Shown here: positions 18,644 through 41,818 of the stretch, piece after piece
How the letters are laid out: each line of letters begins with the position of its first letter
How positions within the stretch are numbered: position 1 is the first letter of the stretch
From: Chitinophaga sp. MM2321
Lineage (GTDB): Bacteria; Bacteroidota; Bacteroidia; Chitinophagales; Chitinophagaceae
Assembly (NCBI RefSeq): GCF_964033635.1
Contig: NZ_OZ035533.1
Span: forward strand, 1,240,001-1,304,000
Reading direction: 5' to 3'
Length of the DNA stretch: 64,000 bases
Translations under genes and position numbers: made by a program
The notes under the pieces: generated by a model
Seen by the model: only the letters and a program-made list of their open reading frames with translations
Told to the model about the DNA's origin: nothing
Database searches by the model: none

Positions 18644-21600
18644 ATGGGAAAAAGAACTACCCAAATAGTTTCTTGTTTAAGCTCCGGGTGTATTCACCGC
18701 ATGTTCGCCTGGAACAAGCACTATTATCTCTCTCTATTGCTGTTATTATTTTCTTTTAGTACAATGGCTCAAACAACTGTTACCGGAACGGTTTCAGATC
18801 CCGCGGGAGAAAAACTGGTAGGCGTAACCGTTAAAGTAAAAGGATCCAATCAGGGCGTCACTACCGGAAGCAACGGAGCTTTCACCCTGAGTACTCCCGC
18901 TGATGCGGTACTCGTGGTATCCTATATCGGTTTTCAGACACAGGAAGTACCCGTGAGTGGTCAGAGCAAATTAAATATCACCCTGCAAACCGCTGCTTCA
19001 GGATTGAATGAAGTACTGGTAATAGGATTTGGTAAACAATCAAGAGATCTGGTAACCAGCTCGATTTCAAAACTGGATAAAGCTGTACTGGAAAATGTAC
19101 CTTATTCCAACGTGGCCTCTGCACTGGAAGGAACCATCGCCGGTGTACGTGTACAAAGTACTTCCGGACAACCGGGCGCTGCTCCCCGGGTGATCGTTCG
19201 TGGTGGAACATCCATCAATAACCCCGATGGCTCTGCACCTTTATATATTGTGGATGGTGTTACAAGAACAGACATGAATGGCCTGAGCGGCGATGATATT
19301 GAATCTATCCAGGTATTGAAAGATGCGGCTTCCACCGCTATTTATGGCGCCCGTGGTTCCAACGGTGTAGTAGTGGTAACCACAAAATCCGGCAAGGCCG
19401 GCCGCACACAGGTATCCTATAACTATAACCTTACTTTTTCCAATATCGCCAAGAAGTATGACTTCGTTTCTGCCAGGGATTTTATTAACTATATGCGATT
19501 AGGAAATGCGGCGGAAGGAAAGACAATAGCAGATCAACACATTGAAGGACCAGCCAATACCGCAAATGACCTTACCAATCAAACTGCTTTTACGCCCCAA
19601 TATCTGACCCCTGAAAATGAATACAAACTGAATGAAGGCTGGGAGAGTATGCCGGATCCTTTAGATCCATCTAAAACCATTATTTTTAAAAACACCGATT
19701 TCCAGGATGTATTGTTCAGAACCGGCGTTACCCACAATCATAACATCGCTGTTTCCGGTGGTACAGAAAAGGCCACTTTTAACCTGGGCGTAGGATATCT
19801 TACCGATAAAGGGATTGCTTTAACTTCCAAATTCAACCGTCTTTCCCTGAACTTTAACGGCGACCTGAAAGTAAGGGATAACCTGAAATTCTTTGCACGC
19901 CTGATGTATACCAACACAGACAGCAAAGATGTATTTGGTAGTGTGAACAACATGTTCGGAAGATCTATTGCTACACCACCTACCACCAAATATGCATTTG
20001 AAGATGGCTCACTGGCCCCGGGCCAGAACAGCTCAATAGGTAATCCTGCTTATTATTCGAGTACACAGGATGTTAAAAATATCATTGATTACTTCACCAT
20101 AGTAGTGGGTGGTCGCTGGGATCTATTACCCGGCCTGGCATTCGAACCACAGGTGTCCCTGTATAAAGTATCCGGTTACAACCGCTTATTTCAACAGGCA
20201 TATTATAACGGGGTTTCTTCTTACGTAGATTCCCGCGCTGCCAATGCAGGCTACAATGATAACCTCAACAAACAGGTGAATGCTGTATTTTCTTATAACA
20301 AATCATTGCTCAACGGTCATAATATAGACGCCACCGCAGGGTTTTCCTACCTGGGTACCAGGGTGAGCAACTTAGCGGCCAATGGACGCGGAGCCGCCAC
20401 AGATCTGATTCCTACATTGAATGCTTCTGCTGAACCTGTATCTGTTAGTGGCGCTGAAACTGAATTGGTCACCGAAGGATATTTCGCCAGGGTGAACTAT
20501 AATTTCCAACAAAGATACCTGGTATCGCTTAGCAGTCGTTATGACGGTGCTTCCAACCTGGGCGACAATCAGAAGTGGGGCTTGTTTCCCGGTATTTCTG
20601 TAGGATGGAATATGCATAAGGAAAACTTCTGGAAGACCCTTCCCGAAGACCTGTTTCAATTGAAGTTGAGAGCAAGCTACGGGGTGAATGGTAATATCAG
20701 CGGACTAGGACCCTACCAGGCGCAAGGCCAATATAGCGTGGGTTCCCGCTATGCCGGTAATGCAGCGGTGCAGAACACCGTTGTGTCCAATTCCGGACTG
20801 GCATGGGAACAATCCAAAACTTTTGATGCAGGGTTTGACCTGGGTGTTTTTAACAGGAGAGTCAATGTAATGTTTGATTATTATAATCGCATCACCGAGA
20901 ACCTGTTAACCAACTTTTCTTTGCCACATTCAACAGGTTTTGCAAGTGTGCTGACGAACCTGGGATCGCTGCAAAACAGGGGGATAGAAATTGAAGTCAC
21001 TGCGCAGGTGTTACCTGCTGCAAGCGCCCTTCAATGGAATGCATCATTGAATGTAGCCAAAGTGAAAACCACCATACTTAAACTTCCTGAAAATGGTACG
21101 GAGAATAACCGGATAGGCGGTGTGTATGTATGGGATCCGAAAATCGGTGATTACGCCTGGAAAGGCGGTTTGCAGGAAGGCGGTGCAATAGGCGATTTAT
21201 ATGCCTATAAGCAAATGAGTATCTATGCTACCGACAAAGAAGCTGCAACAGCACCATGGGATGTTATCATGACCAGAGCAGATAAATCCAAATCTGGTGG
21301 CGATGTAAACTGGCTGGATGGCGATAGGAATGATACCATTGATACCCGCGACCGCTTTTACATGGGTAACATATATCCTACCTGGACCGGTGGTATCTCC
21401 AACACTTTCAGTTATAAGAACTTTAGTCTTTCTGTACGCCTGGACTATGCTTCCGGTCATACGATCTACAACTACACAGGCGCTACGAGTGTAGGCCAGT
21501 TCCAGGGATCCAACAACCTGTCAACAGAAGTTTTAAGTTCCTGGAAAGAGCAGGGCGATATCACAGATGTTCCCAAATTTTATTGGGCAGACCAGCAATG

Positions 21601-21862
21601 GCATAATAACTTATACAGGGGCAATTCCCGGTATTATGAGAAAGGGGATTTCCTGGCTGTCAGGGAAGTATCACTCTCCTATAGTTTTCCACAACAAATG
21701 CTGAGACGGATGAAACTGGCTAATCTGAGATGTTATGTGTCGGGCCATAACCTGCACTACTTCACAAATTATACGGGCCTGAATCCGGAAGAAGGTGGAA
21801 CCGACAATGGTAGATATCCACTGCCCCGCAATATTATTTTCGGACTAAACGTGACCCTTTAA
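18644..21862 (+). CDS. SusC/RagA TonB-linked transporter without STN domain
   Basis: A 1072-residue transporter with a signal peptide ending STMAQ. It goes straight into the carboxypeptidase-D-like domain (TTVTGTVSDPAGEKLVGVTV) and then the SusC plug (NEVLVIGFGKQSRDLVTSSI; LYIVDGVTR; SIQVLKDAASTAIYGARGSN); the barrel ends IIFGLNVTL. It has no STN signalling domain, and no FecI/FecR genes are nearby, which fits control by the divergent FadR-type regulator. The ATG at 18644 is preferred, giving MGKRTTQ; an in-frame ATG at 18605 would add 13 residues. It heads a long co-oriented cluster and pairs with SusD 21 bp downstream. Confidence 0.93.
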   Translation: MGKRTTQIVSCLSSGCIHRMFAWNKHYYLSLLLLLFSFSTMAQTTVTGTVSDPAGEKLVGVTVKVKGSNQGVTTGSNGAFTLSTPADAVLVVSYIGFQTQEVPVSGQSKLNITLQTAASGLNEVLVIGFGKQSRDLVTSSISKLDKAVLENVPYSNVASALEGTIAGVRVQSTSGQPGAAPRVIVRGGTSINNPDGSAPLYIVDGVTRTDMNGLSGDDIESIQVLKDAASTAIYGARGSNGVVVVTTKSGKAGRTQVSYNYNLTFSNIAKKYDFVSARDFINYMRLGNAAEGKTIADQHIEGPANTANDLTNQTAFTPQYLTPENEYKLNEGWESMPDPLDPSKTIIFKNTDFQDVLFRTGVTHNHNIAVSGGTEKATFNLGVGYLTDKGIALTSKFNRLSLNFNGDLKVRDNLKFFARLMYTNTDSKDVFGSVNNMFGRSIATPPTTKYAFEDGSLAPGQNSSIGNPAYYSSTQDVKNIIDYFTIVVGGRWDLLPGLAFEPQVSLYKVSGYNRLFQQAYYNGVSSYVDSRAANAGYNDNLNKQVNAVFSYNKSLLNGHNIDATAGFSYLGTRVSNLAANGRGAATDLIPTLNASAEPVSVSGAETELVTEGYFARVNYNFQQRYLVSLSSRYDGASNLGDNQKWGLFPGISVGWNMHKENFWKTLPEDLFQLKLRASYGVNGNISGLGPYQAQGQYSVGSRYAGNAAVQNTVVSNSGLAWEQSKTFDAGFDLGVFNRRVNVMFDYYNRITENLLTNFSLPHSTGFASVLTNLGSLQNRGIEIEVTAQVLPAASALQWNASLNVAKVKTTILKLPENGTENNRIGGVYVWDPKIGDYAWKGGLQEGGAIGDLYAYKQMSIYATDKEAATAPWDVIMTRADKSKSGGDVNWLDGDRNDTIDTRDRFYMGNIYPTWTGGISNTFSYKNFSLSVRLDYASGHTIYNYTGATSVGQFQGSNNLSTEVLSSWKEQGDITDVPKFYWADQQWHNNLYRGNSRYYEKGDFLAVREVSLSYSFPQQMLRRMKLANLRCYVSGHNLHYFTNYTGLNPEEGGTDNGRYPLPRNIIFGLNVTL

Positions 21863-21883
21863 CCTGATCATAAATTTTGTATA

Positions 21884-23392
21884 ATGATGAAGAAGATAAA
21901 TCAACTATCGATAAGTCTGGTGATGGTGCTTTTAATCTCATCCTGTACCAGGGATCTCAGGTTGAGTCCAATAAGCCAGATCTCAAACGCTTCTTTCTGG
22001 AAAACAGAAGAAGATGCCAAAGGTGGCTTATATGGTATGTATGTTAAATTAAGAGACGAAACAGCCATGAATTTTTACTTCTGGGGCGAAGCCAGAAGCG
22101 AAATAATGGGGCCCGCAGTAGGCGGTACCGCCGGCTATGAAGTTTATTATAATAACACCCTCAACGCTGTGAATGTGGCTACCCTCTACGGTGGTATATC
22201 ACCGACCTGGCTTGGATTGTATACTTTGGTGCACGACGCAAACCTGATCCTTAAATATGTTCCCGGGATTAATTTCAAATCGGAGGCAGATCAAAACAAT
22301 ATCCTGGCGCAAGCCTATGCTATGCGTGCCTTTGCTTATTTTGTAATGGCCAGAACCTGGGGCGGTGTTCCGCTGGTAACCGAACCTACTGAAGGGTATA
22401 GCCCAACAACCACACAAAAACCAAAAGCAACGGTAGAAGAAATATTTGCCTTTATTAAACAGGATCTGGAAGCAGCCATCAAATTGTATCCGAATGCTAA
22501 TTATCAAACCGGCAGGTATTTATGGACATTGCCTGCAACGAATGCCCTGAAAGCGGATGTGTATTTATGGACCGGCAAAAGATTGGGAGGTGGAAATACA
22601 GATTTTACAGCTGCATTAAATGCGCTGAATGAAGTAGAAAAAAGTGATGTAGCCTTGTTACCAAAATTTGTAGATGTTTTTGATTATACAAATAAGGGGA
22701 ATAAGGAAGTCATCATGGCAGTGCGGTTTCAGGAGCTGGAATCACAACAGACCGTGTATAATACCATGTTCTCCAATAAAATGCCTGCTAACATTACGGA
22801 TGCGTCCAAAGCTGCGTTGGGTGGGGTAGGACTTACCGCTTTCTCTGATTTTTGGTGGATGCCTACCGCTTTGTTACGCAACCAGTTTTCTACGGATGAT
22901 CAGCGTAAAGCCGCTTCTTATGTGGACATCTACACGAAGGAGCCCGGCGGCGGGCCCGACAAGTATGGATACTCTGTGCAGTTCAAACACAAGGGAGTTA
23001 TCAGTGGTGGGGTAAGAGCTTTTTATGATGACTACATATTGTATCGCTATGCGGATATATTATTGATGAAGGCTGAAGCCAAAAATGCATTGAACCAGGA
23101 CCCTTCCACCGAGATCAATAAAGTGAGAGCCAGGGCATATGGATCAAATATGTCCGGTCACACTTTTGTAGGTGGGTCCCCGGCAGATAATGATGCAGCC
23201 ATTCTGAAAGAAAGATTGCTGGAACTGGCATTCGAAGGTAAACGCTGGTGGGATCTGATCCGGTTTGATAAAGCCTTCGACCTGGTGCCTTCACTACAGG
23301 GGAAATCAGCACAGAAGTATCTCATGCTGTTTCCGATTTCTGAAGCTACTTTAAGTCTCGATCCCAAAGTGAAGCAAAATGATGGCTACTGA
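21884..23392 (+). CDS. SusD/RagB-like lipoprotein
   Basis: A 502-residue lipoprotein with lipobox VLLISSC (Cys about residue 21). SusD signs are ISNASFWKTEEDAKGGLYGM, AQAYAMRAFAYFVMARTWGG followed by VPLVTEP, the repeat-like helix LYRYADILLMKAEAKNALNQ, LKERLLELAFEGKRWWDLIR and the final LSLDPKVKQNDGY. It should present the locus 2 ligand to the SusC barrel encoded immediately upstream. Confidence 0.94.
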   Translation: MMKKINQLSISLVMVLLISSCTRDLRLSPISQISNASFWKTEEDAKGGLYGMYVKLRDETAMNFYFWGEARSEIMGPAVGGTAGYEVYYNNTLNAVNVATLYGGISPTWLGLYTLVHDANLILKYVPGINFKSEADQNNILAQAYAMRAFAYFVMARTWGGVPLVTEPTEGYSPTTTQKPKATVEEIFAFIKQDLEAAIKLYPNANYQTGRYLWTLPATNALKADVYLWTGKRLGGGNTDFTAALNALNEVEKSDVALLPKFVDVFDYTNKGNKEVIMAVRFQELESQQTVYNTMFSNKMPANITDASKAALGGVGLTAFSDFWWMPTALLRNQFSTDDQRKAASYVDIYTKEPGGGPDKYGYSVQFKHKGVISGGVRAFYDDYILYRYADILLMKAEAKNALNQDPSTEINKVRARAYGSNMSGHTFVGGSPADNDAAILKERLLELAFEGKRWWDLIRFDKAFDLVPSLQGKSAQKYLMLFPISEATLSLDPKVKQNDGY

Positions 23393-23480
23393 TAACGGTG
23401 TAGCATATACGTAAAGATTATTAACTGTATTCTGATACAAAATGTCCCGGAGGACAATTAATCACTTAAATGCAATCAGT

Positions 23481-24653
23481 ATGAATTTTAGAATCTCATT
23501 AATGCTGCTATTTGTTCTTGCCATTTGTGGGTGCAAAGAAGTAGCAAAGGAAAAAGTTGCCGGTGAAAAAAGTACGGGTGAAGGTACGATCACCTCAACA
23601 GGTTATTGGATACCGGAGCATGTGGAAGAAATAAAAGACATGAAAGGCTGGGGACCTTATGTCCGTCTGGAAGATGGAAACCTGTTGACTGTAAATGCTA
23701 ACAAAAGCATGATCAGCAAGGATGAAGGGAAAACATGGACAGAAGAACATGCCATTTTCACAGACAGCACTAAATACAGTATTGGATCACCGGTAATGAT
23801 CCGGACCACCAAGAACATTATTATCCTTGCTTTCTCAAATGGCGCCGAAATGGCTAACTGGAACTGGAACAATACCACGCATGACTCGCCCGGCGCTACA
23901 TTGCCTACTTACGTGGTGCGCAGCCTGGACGGTGGTAAAACGTGGCAGGATTTGCAGAAACTTCATTCCGAATGGACGGGTATGATTAGGGATATTATAG
24001 AAACGAAAGATGGAAGTGTTGTATTCACTTCTATGAAGATGCTGCATAACCCGGGCCGCCACACGGTGATGACCTATACCTCCAGTAATGGCGGCGTAAA
24101 ATGGGTACCCAGCAATATCATTGATCTGGGTGGCATCGGTAATCACAGCGGTGTAATGGAATCTACATTGGTACAATTGAAAGACGGCACTCTCTGGATG
24201 ATTCTGCGCACCAACTGGGGCAACTTCTGGCAGGCATTTTCCAATGATGAAGGCTGGACCTGGAAAGAATTTGCTCCTACAAATATTGATGCCAGCTCAT
24301 CTCCCGGCATTATTCACCGGCTCAACAGTGGCCGCCTGGTATTTATATGGAATCGCCTCTATCCGGAAGGTAAAAAAGAATATACGATGAGACCGGGTGA
24401 TAATAATCTCGCAGAAGTGCCTGCCAGCTGGCAACGGGAAGAAGTATCCATGATGCTGTCTGATGATGACGGTAATACCTGGACCAAACCGGTAGTCATT
24501 GCCAAGGCTCACGCGGATAAAAAGAAATGGATGTCTTACCCCTACATTTTTGAAGTGAAACCCGGAGAACTGTGGATCACTATGCTGCAGTGTGACCTGA
24601 GAATAAAACTGAATGAAAAGGATTTTGTAACCGCACAAACAGGTACTAAATAA
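23481..24653 (+). CDS. Sialidase-fold (BNR/Asp-box) lipoprotein
   Basis: A 390-residue lipoprotein (signal MNFRISLMLLFVLAICGC, Cys18) with a six-bladed sialidase-type propeller. Asp-box motifs SxDxGxTW are SKDEGKTW (79-86), SLDGGKTW (about 148-155), SSNGGVKW, SNDEGWTW and SDDDGNTW. Exo-alpha-sialidases release terminal sialic acids, but the fold also serves other glycan and uronate enzymes, and I cannot confirm the arginine triad. The ATG at 23481 gives a proper lipoprotein signal; an in-frame ATG at 23442 adds 13 residues. It is the first gene after the locus 2 SusC/SusD pair, and a second, different member of the family lies at 28813. Confidence 0.85.
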   Translation: MNFRISLMLLFVLAICGCKEVAKEKVAGEKSTGEGTITSTGYWIPEHVEEIKDMKGWGPYVRLEDGNLLTVNANKSMISKDEGKTWTEEHAIFTDSTKYSIGSPVMIRTTKNIIILAFSNGAEMANWNWNNTTHDSPGATLPTYVVRSLDGGKTWQDLQKLHSEWTGMIRDIIETKDGSVVFTSMKMLHNPGRHTVMTYTSSNGGVKWVPSNIIDLGGIGNHSGVMESTLVQLKDGTLWMILRTNWGNFWQAFSNDEGWTWKEFAPTNIDASSSPGIIHRLNSGRLVFIWNRLYPEGKKEYTMRPGDNNLAEVPASWQREEVSMMLSDDDGNTWTKPVVIAKAHADKKKWMSYPYIFEVKPGELWITMLQCDLRIKLNEKDFVTAQTGTK

Positions 24654-24763
24654 AAGGGAATATCATGGCTGGAAAATATAAACTCAACACGGCATATACA
24701 TGTATGCGGATCATTCATAAAAGTAGAACGGTGAAACAAACTGAATGGGATTGTTCAAATGTG

Positions 24764-27610
24764 ATGCATATGCAGGTCGGTAGGAGCACATCTTCCTATT
24801 GTAAATTACTGCTGGGTGGTTTTTGTTTTCTGGCCATGACCTTTCTTTCCAACAGGGTGTTGGCACAAACCTGGACACAGGATTCCTATGCCGGTTTTTC
24901 TGCCGGATCAACAGATGCAGCAGGGCAGAACCTGTACATAACAAAACAAGGAGATATCCGGAACATTCACCGCTTCGACCTCAATACGGATGGTTATATT
25001 GATCTGTTGTTCAATAGCACCCATAACTATGACTACTACGTTCCGGCCACTTTAATGAGCATGTCGAAAGACAGGAATATCCAGGTAGGAGACCTGGCGG
25101 TAGACGGAAGTATTTCAGTAGAAATCGCTGATCTGAACCGTGATGGATATCCTGATATGGTGTTCTGTCCCAATTCAAATGGGTTGCAGAGTGACCGCCG
25201 TTTCTTAACCATTATATGGGGCGCTGCTGATGGCTGGTCATCCGCCAGAAGCAACGGCCTCTTGCCGGTGAATGGCGCAAAATCAGTAGTGGTAGCGGAT
25301 CTTAATCAGGACAGCTGGCCTGATATTGTTACGCTTAATTCAGCATCCTGGATGCCCAATCAGCCGGAAGGAAATGTGATCCGCATTTATTGGGGTAGCC
25401 CCAAAGGATATATGCTCACCCGTTATAAAGATGTGGGCGTAGATAAAGGTACGAGCCTGGCCGCCGGCGATTTCGATGCCAATGGATTTGCTGACGTAGC
25501 GGTACTGGCGGATGATGTACTTAAAGTGCTTTGGTCTGCCAAAGCAGGTGAAGAAGAACTAAAGACAACTGCCATGCAGGATCAGCTGAATAGTTCCGGC
25601 ATTAAATTACCGGAAGCAGATAACCTTTGCCTCACCGCTGCTGATACGGATGGTGATGGCGTTTCGGATCTGATTATCGGCACAGCAAAAAAGATTCATA
25701 TCATCGGGTCTGGTAAAAACAAGACCTGGAAAAATATTAAGACGGTCGCTATGCCTGTGAATGCCTCCTCCATCACAGCAGGTGATCTGGATCATGATGG
25801 CAGCCCTGATTTAGTTATTTCCTCCTCACTGCTCAACCCACAGGGTGGTGCAGGCATGGGTGAAAGTAAAACAGTGAAGAGCAACAGTATTGTTATGTGG
25901 GGTAATAAGGGGGAATTTTCAGCTTCCGGTACAACGGAACTGGATGCGCCCTATGCGGTATCTACTGCTATCGCAGACCTGGACAACGATGGCCAGCTGG
26001 ATATTATCTGTGCAGTAGAACATGGCGAAACAACTTATGCGGCCACATCACCCATCTTTTTGGGTAAAGGGAACCGGACATTTGAACAGGATAAATCCGG
26101 TATTCAAACAAAAGGCGCTTATAAAATAGGCATCATCCCTGCAAATAATAAACTGGAAAATAAGTCCGTACATGCGGTTATCTGTAACCGCATGGTAGGT
26201 AATTTATATGAGAACGTACCGCTTTATCTCTATTGGGGCGGCGCAAATGGATTCAGTACAGACCGCCGTACAGATATTCCTTTCACCAGCGGTTACCACT
26301 CTCTTGCAGCCGACTTTAACATGGATGGATATCCGGACCTGGTATCTATGAATTCCATGCATGGCGGCGGCGAGATGGACCCGTCTGCCGGCGCCAATAT
26401 TTTCTGGGGAGGAAAGGATGGATATGATTTTAAAAACAAGCACACCGTACTGAAAGAGGCAAATGCGGCTAACGGCAATGTTGCGGACCTGAACAAGGAT
26501 GGATACCTGGATCTCGTGATCGGATTTTTTGATAAAATGGATGGCAGTACAACGGATCTTGTTATCTACTATGGTTCCAAAGACGGGCTGGAAACAAAGA
26601 ACCGCGTTGCTATCAGCAGTGAGGGCAGGTCTACCAGTCCAACCATCGGCGACTACAATAAGGACGGCTGGCTGGATATTGCCGTAGCTTCCTATAGCAA
26701 AGATCTGTTGCGCATTTTTTACGGTGGTCCAAAAGGATTTGATGCCGGTCATCAGAAAACAGTGGATGTACCATCTATCATAGACCTGGAAACAGCTGAT
26801 CTGAATAATGATGGGTGGCTGGATATCATCGCATGCAGCTACAACGATAGAGTGAATAAACATCACGATACCGGGCTTGAAATTTTATGGGGCAGTGCGG
26901 ATGGTTTTAATTCATCAAATGCACAATGGTTGCCCAGCTTCACACCATTGGGTCCTGTAGCAGCTGATTTTGATAACGATGGTTACCTGGATCTCTTTTG
27001 CCCCGCTTACCTCGGAGATGTAACACGGGAAGATCTGCCCATGAACCTCTATTGGGGCGGTCCCAACGGATTTGACCCCGGCCGCAAAACCGTACTCTTT
27101 GCCAATTCTGGTGCGGATGCCTTGGCAGCCGATTTCAACAAGGATGGCAAAATGGATCTGTTAATTGCCAGTCATACCTCCAACGGCTTTCATAGTAAAG
27201 GCATGGCAAAATTATACTATAACGACGGACAACGCTTCACCAGCCAGTCCATGAAGGTAGACGATATCCCTTCTCCGGGTTGCCACTGGATGTGGAATGT
27301 GGACATGGGGCATGTTTATAACCGGAAATTTGAACAATCTTATACCTCTGCTGTCTTTAACTGGAAACGGAACAATAGTGAAGGGAAAATTGATTACAAA
27401 GCGGATATACCTGCCGGTACAAAACTTGTTTTTGCAGTAAGAAGTGCGGATACTAAAGCCACCCTTGACACAAAAGCTTGGCAGCAGGTAGAATCGGATC
27501 AGTTTAAGGTAGAAAAAGCGCATCGTTTTCTTCAATATAAAGTCAACTTTATTTCTGATAACGGAGATCGTTATCCGGTGTTGGATAGAGTTTCGGTCAC
27601 ACTTAAATAA
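24764..27610 (+). CDS. Secreted FG-GAP/VCBS-repeat protein
   Basis: A 948-residue exported protein made almost wholly of FG-GAP/VCBS propeller repeats. I count thirteen calcium-loop motifs of the type DxDxDGxxD, for example DLNRDGYPD, DLNQDSWPD, DTDGDGVSD, DLDHDGSPD, DFNMDGYPD, DYNKDGWLD and DFNKDGKMD, enough for two seven-bladed propellers. A C-terminal ~100-residue beta-rich tail ends LDRVSVTLK. Such proteins bind glycans or act as scaffolds, and some related lyases use this fold. The ATG at 24764 gives a signal peptide ending RVLAQ. The frame is open to an ATG at 24665, preceded by AAGGGA, which would add 33 unusual residues and cannot be excluded. Confidence 0.82.
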   Translation: MHMQVGRSTSSYCKLLLGGFCFLAMTFLSNRVLAQTWTQDSYAGFSAGSTDAAGQNLYITKQGDIRNIHRFDLNTDGYIDLLFNSTHNYDYYVPATLMSMSKDRNIQVGDLAVDGSISVEIADLNRDGYPDMVFCPNSNGLQSDRRFLTIIWGAADGWSSARSNGLLPVNGAKSVVVADLNQDSWPDIVTLNSASWMPNQPEGNVIRIYWGSPKGYMLTRYKDVGVDKGTSLAAGDFDANGFADVAVLADDVLKVLWSAKAGEEELKTTAMQDQLNSSGIKLPEADNLCLTAADTDGDGVSDLIIGTAKKIHIIGSGKNKTWKNIKTVAMPVNASSITAGDLDHDGSPDLVISSSLLNPQGGAGMGESKTVKSNSIVMWGNKGEFSASGTTELDAPYAVSTAIADLDNDGQLDIICAVEHGETTYAATSPIFLGKGNRTFEQDKSGIQTKGAYKIGIIPANNKLENKSVHAVICNRMVGNLYENVPLYLYWGGANGFSTDRRTDIPFTSGYHSLAADFNMDGYPDLVSMNSMHGGGEMDPSAGANIFWGGKDGYDFKNKHTVLKEANAANGNVADLNKDGYLDLVIGFFDKMDGSTTDLVIYYGSKDGLETKNRVAISSEGRSTSPTIGDYNKDGWLDIAVASYSKDLLRIFYGGPKGFDAGHQKTVDVPSIIDLETADLNNDGWLDIIACSYNDRVNKHHDTGLEILWGSADGFNSSNAQWLPSFTPLGPVAADFDNDGYLDLFCPAYLGDVTREDLPMNLYWGGPNGFDPGRKTVLFANSGADALAADFNKDGKMDLLIASHTSNGFHSKGMAKLYYNDGQRFTSQSMKVDDIPSPGCHWMWNVDMGHVYNRKFEQSYTSAVFNWKRNNSEGKIDYKADIPAGTKLVFAVRSADTKATLDTKAWQQVESDQFKVEKAHRFLQYKVNFISDNGDRYPVLDRVSVTLK

Positions 27611-28738: not shown

Positions 28739-28812
28739 AATCAATTAGCATGCGATACCAGAGAAACAAACGGCAGTATAGTGTAATAAATATTTTTTGC
28801 CCGGAGAGAAAG

Positions 28813-29931: not shown

Positions 29932-30008
29932 GCGTAGTAAACGGTTAGCAATTTTTGATCCGGCTGCGTCAACCTGCAGGGCAGCCTATTATGAAGGAGA
30001 ACATTGAG

Positions 30009-34171: not shown

Positions 34172-35635
34172 ATGTCGCATAGGGTTGCTTTATTAGGGAT
34201 TTATCATGAGTCAAATACCTTCCTGGACAAGCCGACAACACTATCGGATTTCAGGAAGGGGCATTGGCTGAAAGGAGAGGCTATCAGGAAGGAATACCAG
34301 GATGCTTTTCATGAGATCGGCGGCATGCTGGAAATACTGGACCGCGAAGGTATTGAAGTGATCCCTGTCATGTACGCGGAAGCTACGCCGGGAGGAATGA
34401 TCACAGCGGAAACATATGCTGTTCTGTTACAGGAAATGATGGACCTGTTGGAAGAAATATTACCGGTAGATGGCTGCCTGGTGGTGCCGCATGGGGCAGG
34501 TGTGAGCGAAGCTTTTGCAGATATGGACGGACATTGGTTAAGCCAGTTGAGAGCGCGTGTGGGTACAAAAATTCCAATCATCGGTACGTTGGATCCGCAT
34601 TGCAATATCAGTCAAAGTATGGTGGCTGCCACCGATGCACTGGTTACCTATAAAACAAATCCGCATGTTGATCAGCGGCAGACCGGGAAAGAAGCAGCGT
34701 TGCTAATGGTCAATCATTTAAAGGGAAAGATACAGCCACAGCAGATCTTGCAGGCATTGCCTTTAGCCATCAGTATTGAACAACAACATACGGAGAGTGA
34801 ACCCTGTCTGAGCTTATACGCATACGCGCATCAGTTGCGTGAGCAGGAAGGAATCCTGTCACTCAGCATTTCACTTGGATTTCCGTATGCAGATGTAACC
34901 GAAATGGGATCGTCTGTGATCGTGATAGCGGATCAGGATATAGCACTGGCCTTGTCAACAGGACAAAAAATAGAAGCCTATATCCGGGAGCATCTCAAAG
35001 ATTTTAGTGGCAGGAAAATAGACGTGGCCCACGCATTAGCTTTATTGGAAGATAGTCCGAAACCAGTACTGATGCTGGATATGGGAGATAATATCGGCGG
35101 TGGATCACCGGGAAACAGTACCTGCTTATTGGAAGCATTGGAAGCGCATGGGAAATGCAGTTACTTTATTTGTTTGTGTGATCCTGAAGCGGTTGCATCG
35201 GCATCGGCATACAAAATCGGGGAGACTTATCAGCTGATCATAACAGCCGATGATACCAATGCCAAGAAACTGGAGATTGATGTTACGTTGCTTCAACTCG
35301 CCGATGGAAAGTTTATGGAGTCGAATCCCAGGCATGGGGGACAAGTGAACTTTGACATGGGAAATATTGCCATCGTTTCAACGGCACAGGGAAGTATCAT
35401 CATGTTTACTTCCCTTCGCATGCCACCATTTAGCCTGCAACAATTACTTGCCTTTAATATTAACCCGGAAGATGTGGATGTGCTGGTAGCAAAAGGGGTG
35501 AATGCACCCATTGCGGCGTATGCGCCGGTTTGTGCTACTATCATACAAGTGGATACACCTGGTGTAACCCGGGCCGATATGACACTTTTTACTTATCATA
35601 ACAGGCGTAAACCCTTGTTTCCGTTTGAAAAATGA
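34172..35635 (+). CDS. M81-family metallopeptidase-like protein (MlrC family)
   Basis: A 487-residue protein of the MlrC/M81 family. HESNTF (12-17) replaces the usual HETNTF, LDPHCN (140-145) and TNPHVD (163-168) supply the probable zinc ligands D141, H143 and H165, and MGDNIGGGSPGNST is the conserved C-terminal-half motif. MlrC was described from microcystin degradation, but most relatives occur in clusters for amino-acid-like or amide compounds and probably hydrolyse small amides. It begins 10 bp after RidA. The substrate is unknown; nothing here suggests microcystin. Confidence 0.88.
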   Translation: MSHRVALLGIYHESNTFLDKPTTLSDFRKGHWLKGEAIRKEYQDAFHEIGGMLEILDREGIEVIPVMYAEATPGGMITAETYAVLLQEMMDLLEEILPVDGCLVVPHGAGVSEAFADMDGHWLSQLRARVGTKIPIIGTLDPHCNISQSMVAATDALVTYKTNPHVDQRQTGKEAALLMVNHLKGKIQPQQILQALPLAISIEQQHTESEPCLSLYAYAHQLREQEGILSLSISLGFPYADVTEMGSSVIVIADQDIALALSTGQKIEAYIREHLKDFSGRKIDVAHALALLEDSPKPVLMLDMGDNIGGGSPGNSTCLLEALEAHGKCSYFICLCDPEAVASASAYKIGETYQLIITADDTNAKKLEIDVTLLQLADGKFMESNPRHGGQVNFDMGNIAIVSTAQGSIIMFTSLRMPPFSLQQLLAFNINPEDVDVLVAKGVNAPIAAYAPVCATIIQVDTPGVTRADMTLFTYHNRRKPLFPFEK

Positions 35636-35644
35636 CACTTATTC

Positions 35645-36487
35645 ATGACCATGGGAACCGAAAAAGTGATAAACAGCCGTGTGGAAAAGATCGCAGATTT
35701 CCCGTTCTATACAGAAGGTCCTGCCATTGATAGCCAGGGTAATATTTATTGCACCACCCTCACCGGAGGAAGCATCCTGAAAGTGGATCGTGCGCAAAGG
35801 ATCACCCATTGGGCATCTTCAGACTGTCCCAATGGACAGATTATTTTACCTAATGATGAACACCTGATATGTGATATTGGACAGGCTGCCATCCGGCGGT
35901 TTGATGCCGAGGGGCAGTTTATCCGGAATGATATTGAAAAGTTTTGCGACGATATTCCCATTCATACACCAAACGATCTTGTGGTAGACGCAAGTGGCAA
36001 TATTTATTTTACAGACTCCATCAGAGAAGAAGGGAAGATTTGTTTTGTGGGTATAGATGGAACGCAGCGCATATTGGCTTCGGGCCTGGATTATCCCAAT
36101 GGTCTCGTTGTTTCGCCTGATCAGCAATGGCTTTATATCGCAGAAAGTTATAAGAACAGGATCATCAGGATTGATCTGAAACAGCCTGGTGTAGCCATGA
36201 GTGACATCAAAGTTTTTGCAGCATTGCCCGTTCATCCTGCTGGCAAACCGGAAAATAACCTGCCTGATGGCCTGACCCTGGATGCAGGGGGAAACCTGTG
36301 GGTAGCGCATTACGGCATGCAGGCAGTACATCAGTTATCACCGGATGGACAGCTATTATTATCCATCAACACCGCTATTCCATTAACCAGTAACCTGGTT
36401 TTCGTGGATGAATATACCTTGATTGTTACCGGCGGACATGGAGAACCCGGACCGGGTTCATTACATAAGATCCATTTGTTGCCTTGA
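35645..36487 (+). CDS. SMP-30/gluconolactonase-like protein
   Basis: A 280-residue six-bladed propeller of the SMP-30/gluconolactonase/luciferin-regenerating-enzyme family. The conserved points are FYTEGPAIDSQGNIYCTT (metal-binding Glu), HTPNDLVVDASGNIYFTD (Asn/Asp metal ligands), DYPNGLVVSPDQQWLYIAES and LPDGLTLDAGGNLWVAHYG. The enzymes open sugar lactones after an NAD-dependent dehydrogenase step, which suits the two SDRs and two aldo-keto reductases nearby. No signal peptide is seen, so it is likely cytoplasmic. The start may be at 35645 or the ATG two codons later. Confidence 0.87.
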   Translation: MTMGTEKVINSRVEKIADFPFYTEGPAIDSQGNIYCTTLTGGSILKVDRAQRITHWASSDCPNGQIILPNDEHLICDIGQAAIRRFDAEGQFIRNDIEKFCDDIPIHTPNDLVVDASGNIYFTDSIREEGKICFVGIDGTQRILASGLDYPNGLVVSPDQQWLYIAESYKNRIIRIDLKQPGVAMSDIKVFAALPVHPAGKPENNLPDGLTLDAGGNLWVAHYGMQAVHQLSPDGQLLLSINTAIPLTSNLVFVDEYTLIVTGGHGEPGPGSLHKIHLLP

Positions 36488-36520: not shown

Positions 36521-37462
36521 ATGGAATATATTAACGTACACGGATATACTATATCCAGGCTTACACTGGGTACGGTTGCTCTCGGACTGGATTACGGCAT
36601 CTCTAACAATAAAGGGAAGCCTGCACCGCAGGAAAGTTTTGAAATTATGTCCTGCGCATTGGCGGCAGGAATCAATACACTGGACACGGCAGGCAGCTAT
36701 GGAAATGCAGAACAGTTGATCGGTAGTTTCCTGGATCAATGGGAGAACAGATCACCGGTGAATGTGGTGACCAAATTCAAAATTAAACCGGAACACCTGC
36801 TTAACCGCAACGAATTAAACCGGGAAATAATACACAGTGTGCGCTCATCTCTTCACCAGCTGAAATTGCAGCGCATATCGGTTTGTTTGCTGCATATGGA
36901 CAGCTCGTTGCCGATGGATCAGGTGGCTGCAATACTGCCTTCGCTTTTACATGATTTAAAAGCGGAGGGCCTGATCGATATTGGTGGCGTTTCTGTGGAT
37001 CATCCTGATGAAGTATCATTTTTTTTAGATCATCCGGAGATACAGGCTTTCCAGGTGCCTGTAAATATATTTGATCACAGGTTGATCAATAACGGCTTGT
37101 TACAACGCATGCAGCAGAAGAATAAAATTGTATTCGCCCGCAGTGTATTTCTACAGGGGCTTTTTTTTATGTCTGCTGATCAATTAACAGGGAACCTGGT
37201 AAAGGCGAAGGCGTATATCAATGCGTTGCATGACCTGGCGGGTCAGGCGGATATGAGTATCGCGCAACTGGCTTTTTCGTATGTGAGAGACCTGCCGGGA
37301 ATTACCAGTATCGTTTTCGGTGCGGTAAGCGTGGGGCAGGTTATGCAGAATGCGGGTCTGTTGCAAGGCGGTACTATCAGTATGGCATTAAGAGAAAATA
37401 TCCGCATCTTGTTTGCGGAGATGCCGGAAGATATATTGATTCCGGCCCTTTGGTCTAAATAA
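36521..37462 (+). CDS. Aldo/keto reductase
   Basis: A 313-residue (beta/alpha)8 oxidoreductase with the AKR catalytic tetrad D55, Y60 (DTAGSYG), K85 (VVTKF) and H125 (LLHMD). It would reduce or oxidise a sugar or aldehyde with NAD(P)H. The C-terminal cofactor segment is weakly conserved (TSIVFGAVSVGQV). It is one of two AKRs in locus 2; the other (40916) shares the fold but not close sequence, so they probably act on different intermediates. Confidence 0.88.
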   Translation: MEYINVHGYTISRLTLGTVALGLDYGISNNKGKPAPQESFEIMSCALAAGINTLDTAGSYGNAEQLIGSFLDQWENRSPVNVVTKFKIKPEHLLNRNELNREIIHSVRSSLHQLKLQRISVCLLHMDSSLPMDQVAAILPSLLHDLKAEGLIDIGGVSVDHPDEVSFFLDHPEIQAFQVPVNIFDHRLINNGLLQRMQQKNKIVFARSVFLQGLFFMSADQLTGNLVKAKAYINALHDLAGQADMSIAQLAFSYVRDLPGITSIVFGAVSVGQVMQNAGLLQGGTISMALRENIRILFAEMPEDILIPALWSK

Positions 37463-37486: not shown

Positions 37487-38275
37487 ATGAGTATGTTCAG
37501 ATTAGATGGGAAGATTGCTATTGTTACGGGAGGGGCGGGTTATTTCGGTAAGCCGCTGTCATTGGCATTGGCCGAAGCCGGCGCACAGGTGATCATTGCC
37601 TCCAGGGATGTTGCGAAATGTGACGCTTATGCAGCGAAGCTGAGGGCTGCAGGATGGAAAGCGGAAGGATGGGCGCTTGATCAGGGAGAGGAAGCATCTA
37701 TCGATGCTTTTACAGCAGGGGTAGTAGCGAAATATGGACAGATAGATATCCTGGTAAATAATGCGGTATCCCGCGAAGGGGTAAAAGACCTGGAAGCATT
37801 GAGCAAAGCAGATATTGAAAATGCGCAACTCATTAATACAACCGGTCTTTTTTTATTGACGAAGGCTGTTGTTAAAGTGATGCGTGTGCAGCAATCCGGC
37901 AATATTATCAATATTGGTTCCATTCAGGGCGTTGTTGGGCCTAACTTTCCGGTGTATGGCGATACGGGCATGTCAAGTCCTGTTAATTACACCTATGATA
38001 AATGGGGGATGGTAGGATTTACAAAATGGCTGGCCAATTATTACGGGAAGTTTAATATCAGGGCTAATTGTATCAGTCCTGGCGGTTACGGACCAGGGGT
38101 ACGTGGCAGTGAAGGAAGAGAAGAATTTATAGAGAATTATAAGCGGTTGACCCCCCTGGGAAGATTTGCGGAAGATGATGATATAAAGGGGCCGGTGGTT
38201 TTTCTGGCTTCCCCTGCGGCTGCTTACATAACAGGGCATAACCTGTTGGTAGATGGTGGCTGGACAAACTGGTAA
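37487..38275 (+). CDS. Short-chain dehydrogenase/reductase
   Basis: A 262-residue SDR with GGAGYFG (15-21) as the dinucleotide motif, NNAVS after strand 4, S145 (NIGSIQG) and the catalytic pair Y168-K172 in NYTYDKWGM. An insertion before the active-site Tyr (VVGPNFPVYGDTGMSSPVN) and the substitution of YSASK by YTYDK mark a subfamily often found in sugar-acid and nonulosonate clusters. IASRD after strand 2 is compatible with NADP(H) or NAD(H). It lies between an AKR and the MFS gene. Confidence 0.88.
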   Translation: MSMFRLDGKIAIVTGGAGYFGKPLSLALAEAGAQVIIASRDVAKCDAYAAKLRAAGWKAEGWALDQGEEASIDAFTAGVVAKYGQIDILVNNAVSREGVKDLEALSKADIENAQLINTTGLFLLTKAVVKVMRVQQSGNIINIGSIQGVVGPNFPVYGDTGMSSPVNYTYDKWGMVGFTKWLANYYGKFNIRANCISPGGYGPGVRGSEGREEFIENYKRLTPLGRFAEDDDIKGPVVFLASPAAAYITGHNLLVDGGWTNW

Positions 38276-38304: not shown

Positions 38305-39558
38305 ATGATGGAAACAGCTACTATTCCGGTAAAAACAAAATTGCCGGCACGTGCCTGGCTGGTGGTAGCACTACTCTCCATCGTGGGATGTTTGAATTAC
38401 CTGGACCGCACCATGATCACCACGATGCGGGAATCAATTATAACAGCTATTCCCATGACTGATTCACAGTTTGGGCTGCTTACTTCCAGCTTCCTGTGGG
38501 TGTATGGCTTGTTAAGTCCGTTTGCGGGGTTTCTGGCTGACCGGTTTAACCGCAGCCGTGTGATCATCTGTAGCTTATTTTTGTGGTCTATCGTCACTTG
38601 GATGACTGCTTACACCACTACATTCGAAGGCTTGCTGGCAACACGCATCCTGATGGGTGTAAGTGAAGCCTGTTATATTCCTGCTGCGCTGGCATTGATT
38701 ATGGATTATCACCGCACCAATACCCGCTCGCTGGCTACCGGCATTCATATGGTAGGCATTATGTGTGGATCGGGGATGGGATTTATTGGCGGATGGGTAG
38801 CGGAAAAACACCATTGGAGCACCAGTTTTATCCTGCTGGGAATTGTAGGTGTCATCTATGCCGTGATACTTGTTTATACACTTCGGGATGTACCGAAACA
38901 AACAAACGAATCGACTACCGCACCATTGGAAGAAAAGATCAGTTTCTTTACCGCTCTGAAAGATTTGTTCGGGCTGCGCTCATTTAACCTGATGCTGGCA
39001 GCCTGGGGATTATTGGGCACGGTTACCTGGCTGGTAGTGGGTTGGTTGCCTACTTATCTGCAAGAAAATTTTCACCTCACACAAAGTATGGCCGGGCTTT
39101 ATGCTACCGGGTTTTACTATCCCGCAGCATTCATCGGTTTATTGTTGGGGGGGTATTGGGCAGACAGGTGGAGCCGCACCAATCCGCGTGCGCGTTTACT
39201 CGTTCCCGTTATTGGCCTCAGCATTGGGGCGCCCTGTATTTTTATTGCCAGTTCTACACCTTTTTTAGCCATTGCAGTAGGATGCTTTATGCTTTTCTCG
39301 CTGACCAAAGCATTTATAGATACCAACATGATGCCCATACTTTCTATGGCGGCAAATCCGCGTTACCTGGCTACGGGCTATGGTATACTGAACCTGGTTG
39401 CCTGTATTATCGGTGGTGTGGGGCTATATGCGGGCGGTGTTTTACGCGATGCACAAATCAATCTCAGCAAAATATACCAGGTGGCTGCCTTGGTTATGAT
39501 AGCCAGCATCGTGTTGTTGGCGCTGGTACGACCACATACAAAAACGGGCGATAAATAA
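38305..39558 (+). CDS. MFS transporter (anion:cation symporter-like)
   Basis: A 417-residue inner membrane protein with about 12 transmembrane helices. LNYLDRTMI in TM1 and the loop-2/3 motif GFLADRFNRSRV are hallmarks of the MFS, and the LNYLDR start resembles the anion:cation symporter group that imports sugar acids, including relatives of NanT. In locus 2 it is the only inner membrane carrier, so it should import the product made in the periplasm or at the surface. Specificity is inferred only from its neighbours. Confidence 0.9.
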   Translation: MMETATIPVKTKLPARAWLVVALLSIVGCLNYLDRTMITTMRESIITAIPMTDSQFGLLTSSFLWVYGLLSPFAGFLADRFNRSRVIICSLFLWSIVTWMTAYTTTFEGLLATRILMGVSEACYIPAALALIMDYHRTNTRSLATGIHMVGIMCGSGMGFIGGWVAEKHHWSTSFILLGIVGVIYAVILVYTLRDVPKQTNESTTAPLEEKISFFTALKDLFGLRSFNLMLAAWGLLGTVTWLVVGWLPTYLQENFHLTQSMAGLYATGFYYPAAFIGLLLGGYWADRWSRTNPRARLLVPVIGLSIGAPCIFIASSTPFLAIAVGCFMLFSLTKAFIDTNMMPILSMAANPRYLATGYGILNLVACIIGGVGLYAGGVLRDAQINLSKIYQVAALVMIASIVLLALVRPHTKTGDK

Positions 39559-39592
39559 ATTAATCTGAACAACTGCAAATAACGATACCGGA

Positions 39593-40897
39593 ATGGAAAA
39601 TATAGCATACAAAAAATCGGCACAGCTCCTGGAAAGAGCGAAGAAGGTAATGGCGGGTGGTGTTTCATCCGAATTCAGAAAATATGGCCATCCGCATGCG
39701 CTGTTTTATACGCATGGCGAAGGAGCCCACATTTATGATGTGGATGGAAATGACTACCTGGATTTTACACTGAGCCAGGGACCTTTGATCCTGGGACATT
39801 CCCATCCCGCTGTTATAAAAGCTGTGAATGAATATACGGCTCATGGACAGCTTTTCGCCGGGCAACATTTGCAGGAACTTGAACTGGCGGAGAAGTTGAA
39901 CAACCTCATTCCTTCGGCGGAACTAATGCGGTTTTGCCTGGATGGTTCTGAAGCTGTGCAAACCGCTCTCCGGATTGCCAGGGCCACTACCGGCAGAAAA
40001 AAATTCCTGCGTTTTGAGGGGCATTATCATGGCTGGCTGGACAATGTATGCTGGGGTATCTCTACTCCTTCAGAAGAAGCTCTTGGCAGCAAAGAAGACC
40101 CGCACGTATTTCCCTGGACAGCCGGAATACCGGAACGCGCCCGGGAGGAATTTATCATCCTGCCGTGGAATGATCTGGCATTGCTGGAGAAAACAGTGGC
40201 TACACATTATGAAGATATTGCAGCGATCATTACAGAACCGGTGATGTGCAACAACGGGTGTATTATGCCCGTTGAAGGCTTCCTGGAAGGACTCCGGAAG
40301 GTCTGTGACCAATACGGTATCGCCCTGATATTTGATGAGGTGATTACCGGGTTCAGACTGGGACTGGGCGGCGCCCAGCAATACTTTGGTATTACTCCTG
40401 ATATTTCTGTTTTTGCGAAAGCACTGGCAAGCGGATATCCGATCAGCGCAGTGGTAGGCAAAAGGGAGTGGATGAAAGTAATTGAAGAAGCAACCGTTAT
40501 TCATGCAGGCACAATGAATGCAGGGAATGCCACTGTGGCAGCGGCACTAGCCACTGTTCAGGTACTGGAGGCTGAAATGCCTTACGACCGCTTGTTTCGG
40601 TATGGTAAAAAATTAATGGATGGTTTGAGGAATGCCGCCAAGGAAACCAATCAGAACTTACTGGTGCAAGGCCCTGGTCCCATGGTACATATAGGGTTTA
40701 CGCAACTGGACGCTGTAAAAGATTACAGGGACACCTTACATTACGACCGCGCTAAATTGGGTAAGTTTATGGCCGCTATGCACGACAGGAAAGTAAGGAT
40801 CATCGGAAGAGGGTTATGGTATATCAGCACGGCACATACGGAAGCAAATATTGATCATGCCATTGCAACGGCGAGAGAGGTATTAGGTAATTTGTAA
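39593..40897 (+). CDS. Class III aminotransferase, glutamate-1-semialdehyde aminomutase-like
   Basis: A 434-residue fold-type I PLP enzyme. D248 in LIFDEVITGFRLGLGG contacts the PLP pyridine ring and K276 in FAKALASGYP is the Schiff-base lysine. The N-terminal MAGGVSSEFRKYG and FEGHYHGWLD resemble glutamate-1-semialdehyde 2,1-aminomutase, but the usual GKaiGGGfP around the lysine is changed, so it is more likely a catabolic aminotransferase or aminomutase than hemL. Its place between the MFS gene and an AKR suggests removal or movement of an amino group on the imported compound. Confidence 0.87.
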   Translation: MENIAYKKSAQLLERAKKVMAGGVSSEFRKYGHPHALFYTHGEGAHIYDVDGNDYLDFTLSQGPLILGHSHPAVIKAVNEYTAHGQLFAGQHLQELELAEKLNNLIPSAELMRFCLDGSEAVQTALRIARATTGRKKFLRFEGHYHGWLDNVCWGISTPSEEALGSKEDPHVFPWTAGIPERAREEFIILPWNDLALLEKTVATHYEDIAAIITEPVMCNNGCIMPVEGFLEGLRKVCDQYGIALIFDEVITGFRLGLGGAQQYFGITPDISVFAKALASGYPISAVVGKREWMKVIEEATVIHAGTMNAGNATVAAALATVQVLEAEMPYDRLFRYGKKLMDGLRNAAKETNQNLLVQGPGPMVHIGFTQLDAVKDYRDTLHYDRAKLGKFMAAMHDRKVRIIGRGLWYISTAHTEANIDHAIATAREVLGNL

Positions 40898-40915
40898 CTG
40901 AAACAGCAATATTTT

Positions 40916-41818
40916 ATGAATCATACGCTCATTGATCCACTGACAATACCATTCAGCGCCCTCGGATTGGGGTGTGTAACTTTTGGCCGGGAAATAGATC
41001 AGGGGGCTTCCTTTGTTATGATGGATCATGCACTGGCCCATGGGATTACTTTGTTCGATACGGCTTCCGCCTATGGCGGCGGCGCCTCTGAAACGATTGT
41101 AGGAGCCTGGCTGACTGCACGCCGGCCTGCAAGAGATACACTTATTATCGCCACAAAACTACTGCCACCTTATGAACCGGTGCAAATCATGGCGGCGGTA
41201 GATCAAAGTCTGCAGCGCCTTGGAACCGATACCATCGACCTGTTGTACTTGCATCGCTGGGACCCTTCCATTGAAACAACGGCTGCTCTCGAAACTTTTC
41301 AGGCGCTAATACAAAGTGGAAAAATACGCATGCTTGGCGCCAGTAATTTCAATGCAGCACAAATCAGTGAAACATTGCGCCGACAGGCAGCACTCGGATA
41401 TGCACGTCTCGGGTCATTTCAGAATAACCACAACCTCGCCGTGAGTGATATCGATGAAGCAATATTCAACATTGCTGCGGAACATAACATAGCGTTGGTT
41501 ACTTACAGTCCGCTCGGCGCGGGCTTTCTTACGGGCAAATATCAGCAGGGGATGCCGGGTAGTACCCGTTTCTCTGTGATACCGGGTCACCAGGATATTT
41601 ATTTTCAGGAGGCTGCTTGCCGGCGGTTGGATACCCTTCAGAAAGTGGCGGCAAGTACTGGTCATTCACCGGTGCATCTCGCATTGGCCTGGGCGATGCA
41701 CCAGCCGGGCGTAACGTCTGTACTCGTGGGTGGTCGCAATACAGCGCAGCTGGATCAGGCATTTGCCGCGCAGGCTTTCAATGACTCCGCTATTTTTGCG
41801 GCGCTGGAATCTGCCTGA
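40916..41818 (+). CDS. Aldo/keto reductase
   Basis: A 300-residue AKR with tetrad D48, Y53 (DTASAYGGG), K81 (IATKLL) and H113 (YLHRWDPS), and a good cofactor segment near the end (PGVTSVLVGGRN). It is the last gene of the locus 2 run, 18 bp after the aminotransferase. No strong terminator hairpin follows; a short ACCG/CGGT repeat near 41831 is weak. Confidence 0.88.
   Translation: MNHTLIDPLTIPFSALGLGCVTFGREIDQGASFVMMDHALAHGITLFDTASAYGGGASETIVGAWLTARRPARDTLIIATKLLPPYEPVQIMAAVDQSLQRLGTDTIDLLYLHRWDPSIETTAALETFQALIQSGKIRMLGASNFNAAQISETLRRQAALGYARLGSFQNNHNLAVSDIDEAIFNIAAEHNIALVTYSPLGAGFLTGKYQQGMPGSTRFSVIPGHQDIYFQEAACRRLDTLQKVAASTGHSPVHLALAWAMHQPGVTSVLVGGRNTAQLDQAFAAQAFNDSAIFAALESA

Follow-up and report, generated by a model that had tools for sequence, protein, structure and literature searches.

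Sialic acids are used in Bacteroidota through a nan route made up of NanO/NanU, NanL, NanE-II, and RokA, described as an epimerase/kinase route (PMC10017367). The Ong pathway for oxidative chitin use in Pseudoalteromonas prydzensis has been tested experimentally, and it is reported that OngB deacetylates GlcNAc-1-acid, that OngC deaminates the product to 2-keto-3-deoxygluconate (KDG), and that OngD, a RidA protein, is essential for growth, its role there being unknown (PMC9537276). OngB is described as a D-aminoacylase-fold amidohydrolase (PMC12017989). Here, we describe a locus of Chitinophaga sp. MM2321 (assembly GCF_964033635.1) at positions 17607 to 41818 of a stretch of 64,000 nucleotides (contig NZ_OZ035533.1, positions 1,240,001 to 1,304,000; the window, in whose numbering coordinates are given unless stated otherwise). 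This locus resembles a sialic acid-scavenging system in which the inner route appears to have been replaced by kinase-free oxidation, deacylation, and deamination, with an unusual sialic acid-like sugar as the probable substrate.

We tentatively read the locus, at slightly less than even chances, as a utilization system for a nonulosonate other than ordinary N-acetylneuraminic acid (Neu5Ac), with an oxidative, kinase-free interior. This reading is favored because an N-acetylneuraminate lyase (NAL)-type pocket, a protein similar to sialidases of glycoside hydrolase family 33 (GH33), and a nan-like shell occur together in a genome that also has a separate, canonical-looking nan cluster. A preliminary description of the locus had proposed that the substrate is a sugar acid bearing an N-acyl group, for instance an unusual nonulosonic acid; the pocket, the GH33-like protein, and the shell support that class, whereas the other candidate named there, an aminoacylated glycan, drew evidence neither for nor against.

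The locus consists of a divergent regulator gene and a run of 18 genes on the plus strand, namely, SusC and SusD followed by exactly the 16 co-oriented genes reported earlier, with every named gene present. In the following list, PLP stands for pyridoxal phosphate, SDR for short-chain dehydrogenase/reductase, and MFS for major facilitator superfamily.

17607..18302, minus strand: GntR/FCD transcription regulator, divergent from SusC (Pfam GntR and FCD)
18605..21862, plus strand: SusC-type TonB-dependent transporter (TIGR04056, 788 bits, above the cut-off)
21884..23392, plus strand: SusD-type lipoprotein, best curated family NanU (NF033072, 309 bits against a cut-off of 425)
23442..24653, plus strand: BNR1, sialidase-fold-family protein without the first (RIP) arginine (PF13088; alignment)
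24665..27610, plus strand: VCBS/FG-GAP repeat protein (PF13517, 7 significant stretches)
27623..28738, plus strand: kelch protein, circularly permuted relative of the NanM mutarotase (PF24996 NANM, 131 bits)
28750..29931, plus strand: BNR2, GH33-like sialidase-fold protein
29955..30929, plus strand: AstE/AspA-family N-acyl-amino-acid deacylase (PF24827)
30919..31731, plus strand: SDR1, candidate sugar 1-dehydrogenase (PRK07231 glucose 1-dehydrogenase, 195 bits against a cut-off of 215)
31728..32840, plus strand: fold-type-II PLP enzyme, candidate dehydratase/ammonia-lyase (PF00291, PALP)
32853..33761, plus strand: NAL-like class I aldolase
33781..34161, plus strand: RidA-family enamine/imine deaminase (PF01042; PARTT motif)
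34172..35635, plus strand: M81/MlrC-family metallohydrolase (PF07364 and PF07171; 3iuu and MlrC 7ylq)
35645..36487, plus strand: SMP-30/gluconolactonase-family lactonase (PF08450; 8djf and 3dr2 among the matches)
36521..37462, plus strand: aldo/keto reductase 1, AKR1 (PF00248)
37487..38275, plus strand: SDR2, best family the gluconate 5-dehydrogenase subfamily (PRK08213, 191 bits against a cut-off of 279)
38305..39558, plus strand: MFS transporter of the sugar-acid anion type (TIGR00893, 139 bits against a cut-off of 395)
39593..40897, plus strand: class III aminotransferase of the GSAM/GntE type, AT3 (PF00202; GntE, 410 bits against a cut-off of 525)
40916..41818, plus strand: aldo/keto reductase 2, AKR2, final gene of the run (PF00248)

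Judged from gene spacing, the run is likely one operon, since the gaps within it measure only -11 to +49 bases; 302 bases precede SusC and 97 follow the final gene. The SusC frame opens at 18605, and translation may begin there or at the next in-frame ATG, at 18644. Between 17400 and 35000, scans for promoters and terminators gave sites no more numerous than in shuffled sequence. It had been noted that the run lacks a sugar kinase, NagA, NagB, and an epimerase, and Pfam indeed placed none of these families among its 18 genes. The rest of the genome does hold GlcNAc 2-epimerase and KDPG aldolase families (that search did not extend to kinases, NagA, or NagB).

The PLP gene served as the bait for finding related loci, and counts over 13 loci therefore describe loci that bear it. 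Matches at an E value of at most 1e-60 were found in 9/294 genomes in the family sample, 5/396 in the order sample, 2/395 in the phylum sample, and 2/79 in the genus sample, these samples overlapping and each including the Chitinophaga sp. MM2321 genome. A scan of GTDB contigs with the same gene added Niabella aurantiaca and a partial, 33% match on a Nitrospinota contig (L009). We examined 13 loci in 12 genomes, the MM2321 genome contributing two (the one in the window and that at 3.90 to 3.94 Mb), and left out a genus-mate (G975), metagenome proteins, and the Nitrospinota contig; the stretches read span 13 to 42 kb, so that distant genes may be missed and absences are provisional. A core of seven genes is present in all 13 loci at 42 to 79% identity to the window: AstE (45 to 61%), SDR1 (52 to 68%), the PLP gene (55 to 65%), the DapA-like lyase (53 to 70%), RidA (63 to 79%), M81 (47 to 65%), and SMP-30 (42 to 63%). 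Less constant are kelch (11/13), SDR2 (9/13), AKR1 (8/13), MFS (7/13), and AKR2 (5/13). In G211, a contig of 13 kb, the AstE and SDR1 reading frames are short and look broken, and in G123 six minus-strand genes separate the PLP gene from RidA. The flanking genes mostly vary between loci, and the core is therefore either held together by selection or moving as a unit; its rarity in the genus suggests patchy inheritance. That the core is a genuine catabolic module is nearly certain. The preliminary description had named a conserved homologous locus with a known substrate as a finding that would refute it; conserved loci were found, and in the literature matches listed none has a known substrate. 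In the open-licence literature on an oxidative amino-sugar or sialic acid route, on legionaminic or pseudaminic acid catabolism, and on M81 in such clusters, we found no description of this locus or of nonulosonate oxidation in the titles and abstract openings of the matches listed.

These counts also bear on the idea that the interior degrades an amino acid or peptide derivative and that the surface genes are unrelated to it. AstE, M81, RidA, the PLP enzymes, and AT3 do belong to amino acid-type families, but SMP-30 and the NAL-like lyase accompany them in 13/13 loci and kelch in 11/13, and the gene spacing suggests a single operon, all of which makes this explanation highly improbable.

The copy of the core at about 3.90 to 3.94 Mb of contig C1 (L005, L006, and L052) has a different surface set, comprising a GH20 protein, two GDSL esterases, a kelch-SSS transporter fusion, a polysaccharide deacetylase, and a RhaT-like protein, and an FCD gene lies in the opposite orientation beside its SusC. 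Two proteins encoded there, of 542 and 995 amino acids (L006:9329-10957 and L006:1997-4984), have no Pfam match, and each has a relative in G028.

The lyase has the DHDPS/NAL fold with the Schiff-base lysine and the catalytic tyrosine. Together with 13 relatives, it agrees with Escherichia coli NanA and the NanL of its own genome at S47, T48, Y136, K164, T166, G189, E192, G207, and S/T208 (14/14 each) and at D191 (13/14). The NAL-type pocket formed by E192, G207, S/T208, and Y/F210, residues with roles in NanA, is found in all 14 module lyases, in NanA, and in NanL and differs from YagE, YjhH, and DapA alike; T166 also differs from DapA. D191, N211, and (with YagE/YjhH) T166 occur more broadly and are not diagnostic. 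In a tree of 24 sequences, a split with support of 97 sets YagE, YjhH, DapA, the genome's own DHDPS, and two others apart from NanA, NanL, and the module clade; the tree is weak in places, NanA being joined to the module clade with a support of 74. Structure comparison puts NALs first, with ties. The GSTGE motif of NALs reads GSTGQ in 14/14 module lyases, and the scores of 169 and 134 bits against curated models fall under their cut-offs of 281 and 382, respectively; for these reasons we file the enzyme as NAL-like only.

A KDG aldolase was considered as the role of this gene, and it is central to an oxidative N-acetylhexosamine/hexosaminate route, in which GlcNAc, GalNAc, or the aldonate would be imported, the DapA-like enzyme would be the terminal KDG aldolase, and no nonulosonate would be involved. 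Such a route would agree with an interior that fits an Ong-like pathway, with the GH20 hexosaminidase and the polysaccharide deacetylase near the second core copy, with the presence of the KDPG aldolase family in 12/12 genomes, and with the occurrence of T166 and D191 in YagE and YjhH as well. However, T48, E192, G207, S/T208, and Y/F210 are NAL-type and unlike YagE and YjhH, the nan-like shell and the GH33-like BNR2 point elsewhere, and the three f18 loci have a separate HpaI-family gene. The pocket residues thus make the KDG aldolase role less likely, and we regard the hexosaminate route as unlikely.

For BNR2, structural modeling predicts a GH33-like six-bladed sialidase fold with Asp boxes. 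The catalytic Asp, Glu, and Tyr and the second and third Arg (D94, E246, Y350, R262, and R319) are invariant in 46/46 sequences and align with the RIP-motif BNR proteins of the same genome; one of the 13 BNR2-type rows aligned (G279_13) has a diverged C terminus without the Tyr. Since the model of BNR2 resembles a GH33 sialidase and most of the catalytic residues are kept, the earlier statement that the locus holds no polysaccharide-cleaving glycoside hydrolase is doubtful. BNR1 and BNR2 had both been called sialidase-fold lipoproteins; they do belong to the sialidase-fold family, and their lipoprotein status is plausible by eye only, a lipobox pattern search of nine proteins having matched SusD alone. 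The 13 repeats counted previously in the VCBS protein could not be recovered; Pfam finds 7 significant FG-GAP_3 stretches and a simple motif scan finds 11.

With the Bacteroidota nan route the locus shares a SusC/SusD pair (NanU being the best family of SusD), a NAL-fold lyase, a NanM-like kelch protein, an MFS transporter, a sialidase-fold surface protein, and an FCD regulator. Unlike that route, it has neither a NanE-II epimerase nor a kinase and instead carries the deacylase, PLP enzyme, RidA, M81, lactonase, and oxidoreductases. The tandem susC/susD genes by which polysaccharide utilization loci are recognized are present, and the SusD falls below the curated cut-off for a NanU-type protein. 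The best curated family of the regulator is NanR (NCBIfam; 79 bits against a cut-off of 260), and the kelch protein matches the NanM/YjhT structure 2uvk in permuted order (E value of 5e-11).

A cluster at about 574.7 to 591.8 kb of the same genome (L049) looks like a canonical nan cluster, with a regulator, SusC, SusD, a NanL-type lyase, kelch, and MFS genes, two RIP-motif BNR proteins, a GlcNAc 2-epimerase-family protein, and a protein that resembles an esterase on inspection by eye only. BLAST identities between the window and this cluster are 43% for the regulator, 38% for SusC, 34% for SusD, 27% for the lyase, 30% for kelch, and 36% for MFS. The window locus thus has the shell of a sialic acid locus and is neither a copy of the nan cluster nor the sole such locus. 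This bears on the view that the module offers these cells an alternative way of using ordinary sialic acids (Neu5Ac or Neu5Gc). The shell is of the same type, and in G237 about 3 kb with BNR1-type and FCD genes separate a nan cluster of canonical type from the start of the module. Yet a NanL-type lyase is found in 12/12 genomes at E values below 1e-50 (with at least 59% identity in 7), which would make the module redundant for these substrates, and the extra enzymes and the second metallohydrolase would be left unexplained. We consider such an alternative route decidedly unlikely.

The interior enzymes, read by family, would together spell C1 oxidation, lactone opening, deacylation, and dehydrative deamination. 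Solved glucose 1-dehydrogenases are among the best matches of SDR1, and the SMP-30 protein matches gluconolactonases among other propellers. The best named family of the deacylase is DoeB (85 bits against a cut-off of 403), with PDB 3cdx and DoeB 6twm among its structural matches; DoeB of ectoine degradation is likewise an AstE/AspA-family N-acetyl alpha-amino-acid deacetylase, but the score lies far under the family cut-off and the gene context is unrelated. The PLP enzyme had been described as threonine-synthase-like, a role that we reject because its loop reads GGGGL in 13/13 rows, whereas the five solved threonine synthases aligned show GNAGN (four of them) or GNLGN (one). Tetraglycine loops generally mark dehydratases. 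RidA keeps its PARTT motif in 13/13 rows. Nonphosphorylative Weimberg/Dahms pathways also combine a sugar dehydrogenase, a lactonase, and a DHDPS-superfamily aldolase; in contrast to these, the acid here would bear an N-acyl group, and the PLP enzyme would form the 2-keto-3-deoxy acid.

The likeness to the Ong pathway would lie in the N-deacylation of an acylamino-aldonate, in the PLP-dependent deamination to a 2-keto-3-deoxy acid with no prior phosphorylation, and in a RidA-family protein within the cluster, which is found here in 13/13 loci. In contrast to OngB, with its D-aminoacylase fold, and OngC, of fold type III, this locus has an AstE_AspA protein (PF24827) and a PALP protein (PF00291) of fold type II, and because the enzymes belong to other folds we treat the likeness as an analogy rather than as membership. 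Ong further has KdgK, GH20, and an SSS carrier, and the available sections of PMC9537276 mention neither a NAL-type lyase nor a lactonase.

On our preferred reading of the locus as a system for a nonulosonate other than Neu5Ac, BNR2, by its modeled fold and most of its residues, would release a terminal 2-keto-acid sugar, the kelch protein would by homology mutarotate the released sugar, SusC/SusD would import it, and the MFS transporter would carry the acid inward. The NAL-like lyase, with its pocket residues, may then yield pyruvate and an N-acyl-hexosamine, whose C1 would be oxidized to a lactone by SDR1 or an aldo/keto reductase, and SMP-30 would open the lactone to a 2-acylamino-aldonate. 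AstE, possibly with M81, would strip the acyl group from this compound, a step assigned to AstE because an acylamino-aldonate is, in chemical terms, an N-acyl alpha-amino acid and the family of AstE acts on such compounds. By analogy with OngC, the PLP enzyme may eliminate water from the resulting beta-hydroxy alpha-amino acid, and RidA (the role of OngD/RidA in Ong itself being unknown) may clear the enamine/imine to a 2-keto-3-deoxy acid and ammonia. Aldolases and reductases would complete the pathway, HpaI and RraA aldolase genes being part of the module in some relatives. An HpcH/HpaI-family gene occurs in or beside the core in all three f18 loci (Pfam was run on the G347 one only), and an RraA-like gene does so in G347, G474, and G211 (Pfam on the G347 pair, L040 and L041). 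G450 is listed with these three genomes for HpcH/HpaI- or RraA-type genes.

The same aldolase genes would be expected if the substrate were an N-acetylhexosaminuronic acid, oxidized at C1 to an aminoaldarate and converted to a 2-keto-3-deoxyaldarate that HpaI or RraA aldolases cleave. The 2-hydroxyacid dehydrogenase within the Niabella locus and the anion type of the MFS transporter agree with this, too. It would, however, leave the NAL-type pocket and the sialidase-like BNR2 unexplained, and no polysaccharide-lyase or uronidase family was found among 20 Pfam-scanned proteins of related loci (5 of the 20 had no match, and most flanking genes were not scanned). We therefore hold a hexosaminuronic acid to be quite improbable.

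Within the preferred nonulosonate reading, a narrower proposal, possible though on balance doubtful, is that the locus serves a bacterial nonulosonate that is di-N-acylated and 9-deoxy, for example legionaminic or pseudaminic acid. The genes would then encode a catabolic pathway for these sugars of the bacterial surface, BNR2 would be a legionaminidase- or pseudaminidase-like enzyme, and the lyase product would be a 2,4-diacylamino-2,4,6-trideoxyhexose, which has no 6-OH and therefore could not be phosphorylated at C6 into the NagA/NagB route; this would account for the absence of a kinase. Of the two metallohydrolases, AstE and M81, each would serve one acyl group, PALP and the GSAM-like aminotransferase would be the two nitrogen-removing PLP enzymes, and the presence of extra reductases would make sense as well. 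A Neu5Ac product would not obviously require M81, AT3, SDR2, or two aldo/keto reductases, and a di-N-acyl 6-deoxy product appears to fit the gene list, with its second deacylation, second nitrogen removal, and reduction.

AT3 was rejected as a core marker, as it lies within the stretch read in just 7/13 loci while copies of at least 66% identity occur in 11/12 genomes. The other AT3 sites form a second module (L057 to L066; C1:5669434-5675698 in the MM2321 genome). Ten regions around these copies, in which families were assigned by Pfam on representatives, hold 3HCDH-type dehydrogenases (9 regions), an M19 dipeptidase (8), a ceramidase-like protein (8), RidA (6), and a D-serine-dehydratase/BhcC-like enzyme (4). 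In 4 of the 10, the best match of SusC is a module SusC (that of the window or of G123) at 53 to 60%, one of the four being a fragment, and the G474 and G347 regions carry beside that SusC a SusD 51 to 54% identical to the SusD of G256. The presence of module-type SusC/SusD in AT3 regions suggests that the AT3 module and the core module may serve related sugars.

Several observations weigh against the reading as a nonulosonate system. The lyase has Gln50 where NanA, NanL, YagE, YjhH, and DapA carry Glu, and its gene adjoins the PLP gene in 10/13 loci, those of G237, G123, and G256 being apart within the stretch read. BNR2 has no canonical RIP motif and has PRNSEGD instead, with the Arg about 2 to 3 residues earlier, for which reason we file it as GH33-like only, and it is present at 50% identity or more in just 9/13 loci. 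The second core copy in the same genome carries other surface genes, GH20 included, and AT3 is weaker as evidence on the substrate because it also belongs to the second module. M81, both aldo/keto reductases, SDR2, and AT3 have no assigned step for a plain Neu5Ac-type product. Among the matches listed, every catabolic enzyme scores below the cut-offs of the curated NCBIfam models. As a possible type for SDR1 and SDR2, the known N-acylmannosamine dehydrogenase of Flavobacterium was considered; it is not among the 60 solved SDRs listed of 656 and 609 matched, which excludes nothing.

The gap between the regulator and SusC contains a perfect palindrome, TTTGTCCTACAAA, at 18407 to 18419 (0.11 expected per window), presumably of the form expected for FCD regulators. 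Its 14-base form has seven matches in the genome, equal to a reversed-pattern control, and the relatives' regulator gaps scanned gave a single weaker site, in G123; in the absence of an excess and of conservation, it was not used as an FCD operator. Upstream, positions 8567 to 17534 hold a separate locus with a sigma factor, FecR, SusC/SusD, a NAGPA phosphodiester-glycosidase-domain protein, and a TIG/NHL protein, and positions 2983 to 7866 encode a protein of 1,627 amino acids that combines a CHU_C type IX secretion signal domain with 12 or more PKD_4 stretches. Downstream lie an AbiEii-type nucleotidyltransferase gene of a type IV toxin-antitoxin system (47112 to 47969; preceding gene at 46441 to 47115) and a DUF4838 protein with a GH67 N-terminal-like domain (53812 to 56055) near a DeoR regulator, an MFS gene, and a xylose-isomerase-like gene.

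If our reading is true, Bacteroidota would possess a conserved, phosphorylation-free way of burning sialic acid-like sugars, and the fate of bacterial nonulosonic acids would gain a defined set of candidate genes. The GH33-like protein, the NAL-like lyase, the deacylase, and the PLP ammonia-lyase would then form the list of enzymes for study.

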